Virus record (IMG/VR): IMGVR_UViG_3300021057_000274
Coordinates: 186,001-250,000 of that record
Direction: 5' to 3' (one strand)
DNA length: 64,000 nucleotides
Source: a virus
Position numbers and translations under genes: made by a program. Shown piece by piece: positions 38,469-42,484 of this stretch (the first letter of the stretch is position 1; each line of letters begins with the position of its first letter). Below the pieces are notes generated by a model. It had not been told where the DNA came from and ran no database searches. It saw only the letters and a list, made by a program, of their open reading frames with translations.

Positions 38469-39125
38469 GTGGGTGGAATCTATAAGATATGCAACATCAA
38501 AGACGGCACCGTTTATATCGGTAGCGCGAAGGATTTTGTAGATCGTGAGGGAAGGCATTTCTACAATCTCACGCATAATTGTCATGTCAATCCCCACTTG
38601 CAGAGAGCGTACACTAGAGACGGCCGAGAATCATTCAAATTTTTGATCGTTGAGGTGATCGAGCCTTACGATAAGCTCACTTACTTCGCCAGGGAAAATC
38701 ATTTCATTGAGCTACACAAAACTAATGGTAAAGTTTATAACATAGCAAAAGCTGAGGGCGGGTGGACGCATCATACCTATCTTCGAAAGCGCGAGATAGG
38801 TAAGAAGATAAGCGTAGCTAGGCGAAAAACATTGTGCGCCATGTCAGCCGAAGATCGTAGGAAGAAATACGGGCATAGGCGAGGTACAAAATTAACTGAA
38901 GAAGAGAAGATAAATGTAAGCAAGAAGCTCAAAGGGGTCGTGAGATCTCCAGAAACTCGAGAAAAGATGCGCCTTGCAAAATTGGGTAAACCTTCTAAAT
39001 TGAAGGGAGTCCCCAAGAGTGAAGAGACGAAGCGAAAAATGAGTATAGCCCAGTTGGGCCACCCAGTCTCCGATGAGGCCAAGGCTAAAATGAGAGCCGC
39101 CAAATTACGGCGAAGGACCCTTTAA
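38469..39125 (+). CDS. GIY-YIG homing endonuclease with NUMOD3 repeats
   Basis: 218 aa from GTG 38469. GGIYKICNIKDGTVYIGSAKD is the GIY-YIG core (catalytic Tyr, later Arg in LQRAYTRDGRESF). Then REIGKKISVARRK and three NUMOD3-type units (SPETREKMRLAKLGKP, SEETKRKMSIAQLGHP, SDEAKAKMRAAKL) bind DNA. The gene is clearly richer in A/T than its neighbours and lies between two ordinary phage genes, consistent with insertion as a mobile element. Its TAA overlaps the next ATG. It is less similar to the other two endonucleases than they are to each other. Confidence 0.85.
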   Translation: MGGIYKICNIKDGTVYIGSAKDFVDREGRHFYNLTHNCHVNPHLQRAYTRDGRESFKFLIVEVIEPYDKLTYFARENHFIELHKTNGKVYNIAKAEGGWTHHTYLRKREIGKKISVARRKTLCAMSAEDRRKKYGHRRGTKLTEEEKINVSKKLKGVVRSPETREKMRLAKLGKPSKLKGVPKSEETKRKMSIAQLGHPVSDEAKAKMRAAKLRRRTL

Positions 39126-39874: not shown

Positions 39875-40314
39875 TCGCCCTCTTCGGGACCTACGACAGC
39901 AGCTCGTGGCGTGACCGCTTCATCGCGCGCTACGACGAGCTCGGCATCACGTACTACAATCCGATCGGTGAGAAGAGAGACATCGCCGCCGAGGTGGTTC
40001 AGCTCTCGACGGCGCCGATCGTGCTTCTCCCGATCACGAGTGACTCCACCGGCTTCGAGTCCCTCGTCGAGGTCGGGTTCGCCGCTGGCTCCCTGCACCT
40101 CAACCCGACTCGCACGCTAGTCACCTACATCGCGCCGACGGTCAGCCAATCCGTGAGGCTCAGGGATCTAGAGCTAGCCGACGCTTCGAACCGAGCGCGC
40201 AAGCTCGCGATCGCGCACCTCGCTTACCTGAAGTCACCCCAGATCATCCTGGTCAACGACCTAACCGAGATGCTGATGAAGAGCATCGAGCTGTGCGGAG
40301 TCAAGAACTCATGA
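39847..40314 (+). CDS. Nucleoside 2-deoxyribosyltransferase-like protein
   Basis: 155 aa from GTG 39847 (28-base overlap with the small membrane protein). VVALFGTYDSSSWRDRFIARYDELGITYYNP is the usual N-terminus of deoxyribosyltransferase-like proteins. TGFESLVEVGFAAGSL holds a Glu at the place of the catalytic nucleophile, and a LPITSDSTG loop precedes it. Such enzymes swap bases on deoxynucleosides or hydrolyse modified nucleotides. With dihydrofolate reductase and glutaredoxin it suggests control of nucleotide pools. The true start may be closer to VVALFG; no good ribosome binding site marks it. Confidence 0.65.
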   Translation: MGVSRERSVVALFGTYDSSSWRDRFIARYDELGITYYNPIGEKRDIAAEVVQLSTAPIVLLPITSDSTGFESLVEVGFAAGSLHLNPTRTLVTYIAPTVSQSVRLRDLELADASNRARKLAIAHLAYLKSPQIILVNDLTEMLMKSIELCGVKNS

Positions 40315-40326
40315 CTGGATCTTATC

Positions 40327-40554
40327 ATGGGATGTGAATACTGCAAGGTACCAGACAGATGTGAGGGTTATCATCGAACAGGACGTCCTTGTTCAGCGCC
40401 CATCGACGCCCCCTTGTCAGCCAGAGAGGGACGGAAGTGTAACTGCGGTGGCGACGTCGAGGGTCACTGCATCGATGACGTCTACGATGACTGGCGTTAC
40501 TATTGCGTCACCGGGTGCGGCAAGACCTGGGTCGAGGAGGGCGGCGACGCTTGA
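40327..40554 (+). CDS. Cys-rich zinc-ribbon-like protein
   Basis: 75 aa from ATG 40327. Starts GCEYCKVPDRCEGYHRTGRPC, then KCNCGGDVEGHC and RYYCVTGCGKTWVEEGG: eleven Cys, several as CxxC or CxC pairs, plus His residues, as in small zinc ribbons. No catalytic residues. It may bind nucleic acid or a host protein (inference from composition). Confidence 0.6.
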   Translation: MGCEYCKVPDRCEGYHRTGRPCSAPIDAPLSAREGRKCNCGGDVEGHCIDDVYDDWRYYCVTGCGKTWVEEGGDA

Positions 40555-40586
40555 ATAATTTCTAGCCTCAAGCTTTGATGTTACCT

Positions 40587-40608
40587 TGTCCTCTTACCCG
40601 AGAGGACA
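40587..40608 (+). promoter_or_regulatory. Hairpin covering a ribosome binding site
   Basis: Perfect 8-bp stem TGTCCTCT/AGAGGACA with loop TACCCG. The 3' arm contains AGAGGA, the Shine-Dalgarno for the ATG at 40611. It has the same layout as the hairpin at the gp47 start and a loop like that of the hairpin at 60621. Confidence 0.6.
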
Positions 40609-40610
40609 TC

Positions 40611-41120
40611 ATGAACCAACAAGTCGCGAAAGCGATCCGCAAGCACCTCCGTCAGATCGAAGCCGACGCCCGCAAGCGCGAGGGCGTCGAGGAACCCAAG
40701 GGACCACGCTCTCTCCGTCGCCGCGGAACCCGAGCCTACTACGAGCTCGAAAAACGTCGCCCCTTCCGCGTCCAGGTCACCGAGACCAAGAACGAGGACG
40801 GTACGGACGGCGAGCCGAAGCTCGAGAAGGTCGACATCGGCGCCGGACAGCTGGTCAACGCTCCGAGCACCACCCGCGGGCGCTACCTCGTGCTCAAGAA
40901 GTCGATCACCCGCACGATCCAGCGCCGCACCCTCGAGAGACACCTCGGCGGCAAGAAGGCCCTCAAGAAGCATGACGACAAGCTCGCGGCCGAAAAGCGC
41001 GAGGACGCGAGGCGGGCCAAGCGTCTCGAGCGCCGCCGCAAGGCCGCTAAGATCGGTTGGGAGGCGTTCAAGGTGCGTGAGGCGAAGCGACGTGAGGCGA
41101 GGGCCGCGGCGGTCGCGTGA
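40611..41120 (+). CDS. Highly basic hypothetical protein
   Basis: 169 aa from ATG 40611, with AGAGGA 5-6 bases upstream. Arg/Lys-rich throughout (SLRRRGTRAYYELEKRRPFRVQV, RTIQRRTLERHLGGKKALKK, AKRLERRRKAAKIGWEAFK). The composition suggests nucleic-acid binding. No enzyme motif. Its stop overlaps the GTG of the next gene (GTGA). Confidence 0.65.
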   Translation: MNQQVAKAIRKHLRQIEADARKREGVEEPKGPRSLRRRGTRAYYELEKRRPFRVQVTETKNEDGTDGEPKLEKVDIGAGQLVNAPSTTRGRYLVLKKSITRTIQRRTLERHLGGKKALKKHDDKLAAEKREDARRAKRLERRRKAAKIGWEAFKVREAKRREARAAAVA

Positions 41121-41659
41121 TCGAGATCACCAAGATCATCCCGGGAGAGATGCCAGCGCTCGCTCGTTGGCTCGAGGCGGAGGTCAAGCCTCAGCTGACG
41201 GGAGACGTCAGCAACTACTCCAAGGGGCGTCCGCGCTGCTGGCTGCGGATCGAGCCGGGGCTGATCAGCAAGATCAAGGACCAGCCAGGCGTTCACACAC
41301 CTAACGAATACTGGGAATTTCTCGAGTGGATCACCGGGTGGCGGTTTGACTATTGCCTGGTGACCTACTCGGGCGACGAGACGCCCGTGGGCATCACCCC
41401 TCACCGCGACTCGGGCTTCGCTGACTACGAGGCCTACGGGCTCAACATCACCAGCACCTCCGAGTTTCGCTACTGGAACGCTCGCAACTCCTTCGGGTTC
41501 TCCCACCCGGTGAGAGAGCTGACGGCGTACGACCCGCCGACCCACGTCGTCGAGCAAACTCCGGGGATGGTAACTCGCTTCAATTGCAAGAACATCCACG
41601 CCGCGATACCCCAGCCGAAGCGGTGGGCGATGAACTTCTGGCGGAAGAAGAAAAGGTAG
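41117..41659 (+). CDS. 2-oxoglutarate/Fe(II) oxygenase-like protein
   Basis: 180 aa from GTG 41117. GITPHRDSGFADYEAYGLNI carries the HxD iron pair, and FNCKNIHAAIPQPKRWAMNFW carries the distal His and the Arg that binds 2-oxoglutarate; the spacing fits the jelly-roll oxygenase core. T4-type phages often carry such genes. Possible targets are protein residues or DNA bases; nothing in the sequence tells which. It is coupled on both sides. Confidence 0.7.
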   Translation: MIEITKIIPGEMPALARWLEAEVKPQLTGDVSNYSKGRPRCWLRIEPGLISKIKDQPGVHTPNEYWEFLEWITGWRFDYCLVTYSGDETPVGITPHRDSGFADYEAYGLNITSTSEFRYWNARNSFGFSHPVRELTAYDPPTHVVEQTPGMVTRFNCKNIHAAIPQPKRWAMNFWRKKKR

Positions 41660-42051
41660 TGGCCCGCGGGGTCAAGGCGGGATCCGTTCGGGGTCCCTAT
41701 CGCAAGACGACGCAGAAGATCGAGCGGTTTCGGGTCGAGCTCAATCGGGCGCTGATCCTGGCGATCGACAATGACCGATCTCTGCCCGCGGAGAAGTTTT
41801 ACACCGGTAGAGAGATCCGCCAGCGATTCGGCCTGTCAGCTCTCGTCGAGTTCCGAGAGTGGTTTAGCTCTGAGCAGAGCTTCGACAATGACAGGGCTGA
41901 TCAGATCCTCCAAGCGTTTCGCTCGGGTAAGATCAACCAACGGACCTACACCTCTAGAATCAATCGCTGCTTCAAGTGGCGCTGGCGTCTCAAGCTCGGG
42001 CGAGTGATCGACGCGAGGTCGATCGTCAGGCCGGCGGTGCTCGAGTTTTAA
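41659..42051 (+). CDS. Hypothetical protein
   Basis: 130 aa from GTG 41659, overlapping the upstream TAG (TAGTG). Basic and helical: KAGSVRGPYRKTTQKIERFRVELNRALILA, REIRQRFGLSALVEFREWFSS, INRCFKWRWRLKLGRVIDARS. A small DNA-binding protein is possible. It is the last gene of the plus-strand enzymatic region; the next gene is convergent. Confidence 0.6.
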   Translation: MARGVKAGSVRGPYRKTTQKIERFRVELNRALILAIDNDRSLPAEKFYTGREIRQRFGLSALVEFREWFSSEQSFDNDRADQILQAFRSGKINQRTYTSRINRCFKWRWRLKLGRVIDARSIVRPAVLEF

Positions 42052-42113
42052 GTCAGGCTAAACCTGTACTAAATTGTAACATCATATAGTATAGATAGTA
42101 AGAAGAAGCAACT

Positions 42114-42247
42114 GAGGTGTCAAATTAAATGCACACCTCTAGACGACGGGCGCTAGCCCGTCCGCCGCGCCAGCGGCGAAAGATAGGAAAGTTACCGATT
42201 AGAAGCTGCGCCGGGAGAGACCCGGCGGACGGGCTAGCGCCCGTCGT
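42114..42247. ncRNA. Structured palindromic element (possible non-coding RNA or cruciform)
   Basis: The 196-bp gap between convergent genes (42052-42247) holds no gene. A 7-bp hairpin (GAGGTGT/ACACCTC, 42114-42139) comes first. Then two 25-bp arms, 42143-42167 and 42223-42247, are perfect inverted copies 55 bp apart. Each arm is itself palindromic (GACGGGC-4 nt-GCCCGTC). Inside lie two more perfect hairpins: CGCCGC-GCCA-GCGGCG (42163-42178) and GCCGGG-AGAGA-CCCGGC (42210-42226). No U-run follows on either strand, so a plain terminator is unlikely. Candidates are a structured RNA, a REP-like palindrome or a cruciform used in replication or recombination. Confidence 0.6.
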
Positions 42248-42484
42248 TCACACGAAGGGGTGTCCGCCCTTCTTCATCAAGTCTCCCGCTTCCTTCATCC
42301 GCTTGTTCAAGAAGTCGACCGCTCGATCACGCTCAGCTGGAGTGAGCGCCCACACGTCATCCCTCGTCATCGCCCCTCGAAACCAGTAGAGGATCTGGTT
42401 GAGTTGTTCGATGAGAGCTTCATTGTCACGGGTGAACGAGTTGATCACGGTCTGGATCAGCTCTCCGTTGTTGGTACCGATCAC
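42248..42484 (-). CDS. Tail assembly chaperone-like C-terminal extension, made by -1 frameshift (gp51-like position)
   Basis: 78 codons in the -1 frame after the gp26-like gene, with a GTG at 42484 overlapping its stop (GTGA). The frame is open directly after the slippery heptamer of the upstream gene, so a frameshift would add about 80 residues. Sequence: IGTNNGELIQTVINSFTRDNEALIEQLNQILYWF, then a TPAERDRAVDFLNKRMKE helix. No ribosome binding site is placed for independent expression other than coupling. T4 keeps gene 51 after gene 26. Whether it is a separate protein, an extension or both needs experiment. Confidence 0.65.
   Translation of the reverse strand: MIGTNNGELIQTVINSFTRDNEALIEQLNQILYWFRGAMTRDDVWALTPAERDRAVDFLNKRMKEAGDLMKKGGHPFV

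Follow-up and report, generated by a model that had tools for sequence, protein, structure and literature searches.

A perfect 25-bp palindrome where operons of a T4-like jumbo phage converge: a probable bidirectional terminator in a likely non-coding RNA locus

Two operons of a T4-like jumbo phage converge on a 196-nt gap, which holds the longest perfect inverted repeat in the sequence scanned around it. We establish the anatomy, predicted stability, uniqueness and position of this element. The evidence favours an unusually large structure with an ordinary role, that of ending transcripts which arrive from either side; a bidirectional transcription terminator or 3′-end stem is probable. The main gain is one of context, since the gap is likely a non-coding RNA locus of a group of jumbo phages, and this member appears to be without the usual RNA.

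The window, the whole stretch of 64,000 nucleotides analysed, represents bases 186001-250000 of a 389,331-bp IMG/VR record and encodes T4-like structural proteins (portal, major head protein, tail sheath and baseplate hub). Named phages provide only distant protein relatives, the best being Xanthomonas phage XacN1 with 32% for the baseplate-hub gene. Positions 40000-47000 have no DNA match to GenBank phages.

Anatomy, rarity and setting of the palindrome

The gap extends from the end of a + strand gene at 42051 to the stop codon of a − strand gene at 42248-42250. The last + strand open reading frame (41584-42051, 155 amino acids) has no PHROG or Pfam match. The − strand gene (42248-42484) encodes 78 amino acids and is the last of a baseplate operon. 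We consider it real because it is 51-53% identical in four syntenic contigs, located by way of their portal protein. The same operon includes the T4 baseplate-hub (gp26-like) protein at 42481-43296 (PF12322, phrog_150) and a gene at 43316-43714, and runs toward the + strand genes. An AT-rich stretch, TATAGTATAGAT, at 42065-42107 on the + strand is a possible promoter. It lies just ahead of the palindrome and, in a genome rich in G and C, ranks among the stretches richest in A and T, being one of four of its kind at 40 nt (two at 60 nt) in 184 kb. A search for phage promoter motifs gave nothing clear, and no Rfam family matches the window at gathering score. A gene resembling GIY-YIG/NUMOD3 homing endonucleases lies at 38469-39125, between the gp46 region and the gap.

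The two arms, at 42143-42167 and 42223-42247, are complementary at 25 of 25 positions and separated by a 55-nt spacer (42168-42222), as originally predicted; the right arm abuts the stop codon of the 78-residue gene. The prediction that each arm is itself palindromic is likewise correct: both hold the near-palindrome GACGGGC-4 nt-GCCCGTC, at 42145-42162 and 42228-42245. Further hairpins had been placed in or beside the element and these are present, though they number four and not three. Two adjoin the arm palindromes, CGCCGC/GCGGCG at 42163-42178 and CGCCGGG/CCCGGCG at 42209-42227. The other two flank the core. GAGGTGT/ACACCTC (42114-42139), read on the − strand from 42139 to 42114, is followed by a pyrimidine-rich, terminator-like tail (AGTTGCTTCTTCTTACT; AGTTGCTTCTTCTT). 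GAAGGG/CCCTTC (42254-42272, with a tail to 42275) carries TTCATC on the + strand and falls within the last codons of the − strand gene. Inspection of the flanks confirmed that on neither strand is the core stem directly followed by a U-run. The gap is convergent as first described, but the element does not fill it, covering only the 3′ 105 of its 196 nt.

Predicted RNA folding is far more stable than that of shuffled sequence, with z values of −8.0 for the + strand and −7.2 for the − strand, and none of 200 shuffled sequences was equally stable. The local hairpins of 6-7 bp together give approximately −57 kcal/mol and the single 25-bp stem approximately −73 kcal/mol, so that the long stem is predicted to be favoured by 15-16 kcal/mol.

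The palindrome is statistically striking. In 184 kb, comprising the window and 60 kb on either side out of the 389,331-bp record, the next longest perfect inverted repeats with a spacer of at most 110 nt have arms of 17 and 15 bp, and in 20 first-order Markov simulations the longest measured 11-14 bp. The 17-bp repeat (49545-49579, 1-nt loop) follows the end of a − strand gene; nine bases further along that strand comes a T5 run. The heptamer GAGGTGT occurs after both this hairpin and the 25-bp stem; with 28 occurrences in 184 kb against approximately 22 estimated, it was dropped as a candidate signal.

Could such an element be mobile? The arms form perfect terminal inverted repeats, the GC content differs from that of the flanks and the element is absent in relatives, as would suit a palindrome of the REP/BIME or MITE type. 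However, further copies of the 18-nt unit, sought in the full record and in bacterial genomes, are missing or at chance level. Without mismatch it occurs in the 389-kb record only in the two arms and is absent from other IMG/VR contigs, a search from which the window's own record was possibly left out. Among 84,980 bacterial species genomes there is one match in each of four unrelated assemblies, where an arithmetic estimate for random sequence gives approximately 7. The many dispersed copies typical of REP/BIME elements are thus not seen in the record, IMG/VR or bacterial genomes, nor are the related copies typical of MITEs seen in the record or IMG/VR, and no target-site duplication is visible at the arm ends. 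We have dropped the REP-like reading put forward originally because the record and other viruses hold no further copy and the bacterial matches are at chance level. The REP version is largely refuted, and a mobile palindrome of any type is very unlikely.

A role at the level of DNA, as a cruciform or as the site for a palindromic DNA-binding protein or an SbcC-like nuclease, is similarly improbable. The nested palindromes would suit it, and the gene for gp46 (phrog_77, annotated as 'SbcC-like subunit of palindrome specific endonuclease') lies at a distance of 5-7 kb, but gp46 is also near this gap in relatives that have no palindrome. The long spacer would disfavour extrusion, and convergent genes would favour positive supercoiling, which opposes it. 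No evidence was obtained for the cruciform bound by recombination proteins that had been suggested.

A putative bidirectional terminator

Several observations support termination. The element sits in a convergent gap, the palindrome runs right up to a conserved gene's stop codon, and the core stem is common to both converging transcripts. The best reading is a composite, in which a shared core stem is combined with a weaker hairpin on each strand that leads into a pyrimidine-rich tail, and together these would end transcription. RNA polymerase from either side would transcribe the GC-rich core, the RNA of which may form the local 6-7-bp hairpins first and then rearrange into the single 25-bp stem. 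Polymerase would then meet the weaker hairpin with its pyrimidine-rich tail, 42254-42275 on the + strand or 42139-42097 on the − strand, where release is expected. The large stem could pause polymerase, block antisense read-through into the neighbouring operon and keep exonucleases off the 3′ ends of both mRNAs.

Do other genes of this phage end in hairpins? With 194 genes called in the 184 kb by a simple codon model, a heuristic in place of an annotation, we scanned the approximately 80 nt past each stop codon for perfect stems of 9 bp or more. Such hairpins occur at 11 of the 194 gene ends, compared with 4 of 194 mid-gene positions and 1 of 194 positions upstream of starts. The excess at gene ends (11 against 4) is modest. 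The 11 hairpins have 1-5 T among the first eight tail bases, with a median of three. Since gene-end hairpins here mostly carry weak U-tracts, the missing U-run weighs less against a terminator.

Compared with the canonical intrinsic terminator, the element has the GC-rich hairpin after a stop codon but not the U residues directly after the stem, and the flanking hairpins offer only pyrimidine-rich tails. It does agree with the I-shaped (U-less) type as PMC5335608 defines it, a stable gene-end hairpin without a U-trail. Against a terminator, the 55-nt spacer is far above the size of a normal terminator loop. A terminator scan did not report the 25-bp element. The closest relative (locus L024, among the best 80 of 98 loci) has no such hairpin at this place, and many others lack a perfect arm of at least 12 bp. 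In the open full-text literature we found nothing on phage convergent inverted-repeat terminators that treats RNase III and transcript ends.

A small structured RNA transcribed on its own is an alternative that we regard as unlikely, though less so than the mobile and DNA-level readings. It would span approximately 42098-42277 on the + strand, with an AT-rich promoter, a 5′ hairpin and a long branched stem closed by GAAGAAG/CTTCTTC. The exceptionally AT-rich TATAGTATAGAT lies just upstream, the minimum-energy fold of the sequence from 42097 onward pairs 42102-42108 with 42269-42275 to enclose all the hairpins, and gap and strand are those of a long RNA of relatives, described below. However, the promoter scan gave no consensus + strand site there. 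The closing helix gains approximately 1 kcal/mol (−96.3 against −95 for a shorter stretch) and breaks the 42254 hairpin, whilst its two halves also have another explanation, as pyrimidine-rich tails belonging to a pair of opposed terminators. The 3′ end would also enter the last codons of the neighbouring gene, and no homologue, hence no covariation, was found.

The same gap in related phages

A profile scan for gp26-like proteins provided loci for comparison, of which the best 80 of 98, some on repeated contigs, were considered. No close relative at this gene was found in IMG/VR. The closest locus among these 80, L024, shares 54% in gp26 and has a different arrangement, without such a hairpin. 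Many syntenic relatives have a hairpin of 12-17 bp with a loop of 0-13 nt, 225-290 nt past the end of gp26. In L062 and L082 the arms are 16 bp with a 1-nt loop, after the stop codon of the 78-residue gene, and at the same place L075, L084 and L034 have arms of 15, 17 and 13 bp, respectively. Many other relatives examined have no perfect arms of at least 12 bp in the gap. None of the best 80 of 98 gp26 loci has arms longer than 17 bp, and an inverted repeat like the 25-bp palindrome was found in the gap of no syntenic locus examined. Since ordinary hairpins are frequent at this position and none exceeds 17 bp, terminators would often occur there in relatives, yet this palindrome is found in this lineage only. 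It is most likely a lineage-specific form.

In four relatives (L005-L008) the same gap is approximately 0.7-0.9 kb long and contains conserved non-coding sequence. An exact 19-nt core matched seven IMG/VR contigs, all at this gap. The Rfam family EGFOA (RF02955, gathering score 37.7) gave scores below threshold of 30.4 bits in L020 and L023, 27.3 bits in L022 and L008, and 19.1 bits in L006; L005-L008 have no match at gathering score. A 5-bp stem around GGTAAAGCGTAACCTGGGC is paired in 100% of 25 cells, with double changes at three of the five pairs. Its covariation score exceeds those of all 500 shuffles and all slid versions, with the caveat that only five sequences are compared and kinship alone can exceed shuffles. 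Free folding of four isolated core segments is no better than that of shuffles (z from +1.3 to −1.0), so the case for structure depends on the covariation and the EGFOA match.

A core model, R1, was built from five of these RNA sequences and given 41 of the best 80 gp26 loci, the others having been omitted as duplicates or lower rows. It added four loci: L041, L044, L053 and L059. The total is 11 contigs (L005-L008, L020, L021, L023 and these four) or nine distinct sequences, with the pairs L005/L006, identical over 912 nt of gap, and L021/L023 each counted once. In all 11 the RNA lies in the gap and converges on the gp26 operon. Regions assigned to it include L006:4600-5511, L007:4940-5631, L008:4950-5631, L020:1114-1990, L021:3994-5070 and L041:5777-6658. 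A degenerate core pattern selected 22 new loci; 15 were tested for EGFOA and four, on other IMG/VR contigs, exceeded the gathering score (L137:3024-3128, L126:10261-10412, L119:5339-5474 and L134:3205-3348). A conserved non-coding RNA with an EGFOA core is likely in the gap of related jumbo phages, judging from the sequences of the 11 contigs. The open full-text literature returned one unrelated paper only on EGFOA. A large non-coding RNA of phage ICP1 is described in PMC7567579.

Downstream of the baseplate-hub operon, two named jumbo phages, XacN1 (L104:7838-8348) and RAS14 (L107:7806-8627), have stretches of 0.5 and 0.8 kb in which no gene is annotated; R1 matches neither. In a more distant phage contig a Polynucleobacter-1 RNA (RF01718, 108 bits) lies at L014:4805-4940, with the gp46 gene on one side and the gp26-like operon on the other.

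In the phage studied here the long RNA of relatives appears to be missing, although strong divergence could also give an empty result. The RF02955 covariance model finds no match in the window or the 389-kb record, and the record holds neither a match to R1 nor DNA similarity to L008. Alignment of the 196-nt gap with nine of the long RNAs is no better than that of random windows. By eye, the spacer sequence CCGATTAGAAG resembles CCGATAGAAG, a 3′ motif in the long RNA of relatives; an overall test was negative and the resemblance was not used. With up to one mismatch, CCGATAGAAG is no commoner in the window than in shuffles.

These results bear on two further readings. The palindrome might be what is left of the long EGFOA-like RNA, shrunken to a 3′ hairpin domain. 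It occupies the same gap, and abutting perfect hairpins occur near the 3′ end in several of the long RNAs (L025, L046). However, the summed local score of the gap against the nine RNAs is 174, compared with a mean of 176 over 400 windows taken from this genome and of 179 over 300 shuffles, and covariance and profile searches of the window and the 389-kb record gave no match, so there is little chance that it is such a relic. Alternatively, the gap could be a dedicated non-coding RNA locus of the jumbo-phage group at which a compact, self-closed RNA of approximately 175 nt, with the perfect 25-bp stem and its own AT-rich promoter, replaced the long RNA. This is unlikely, slightly more so than the small RNA considered above.

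Implications and comparison with known systems

As a putative terminator, the palindrome is a strong case, open to testing, of the means by which a jumbo phage may keep convergent operons apart without terminators rich in U. Through the relatives the EGFOA motif is linked to one constant genomic position within a phage group, and the gap gives a natural contrast between presence and absence of an EGFOA-like RNA.

How does the element compare with systems already described? It occupies the same convergent gap as the EGFOA RNA (RF02955) of relatives but has no sequence or model match to it in this phage. Like REP/BIME elements it is intergenic and consists of two palindromic units in inverted orientation; unlike them it is present in single copy and has no family in the phage, other viruses or bacterial genomes. 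With I-shaped terminators it shares a strong gene-end hairpin without a U-trail. PMC5335608 describes such hairpins as fairly common in GC-rich mycobacterial genomes, and the type is contested, with contradictory evidence within the same paper too. The palindrome is far larger and branched; termination is disputed for the class and putative here. Bidirectional terminators are reported for Bacillus in PMC5381666. The 25-bp arms, the structured 55-nt spacer and the core stem without a U-run distinguish the palindrome from bidirectional intrinsic (rho-independent) terminators, but in common with these it places a GC-rich hairpin, stable on both strands, in a convergent gap after a stop codon.
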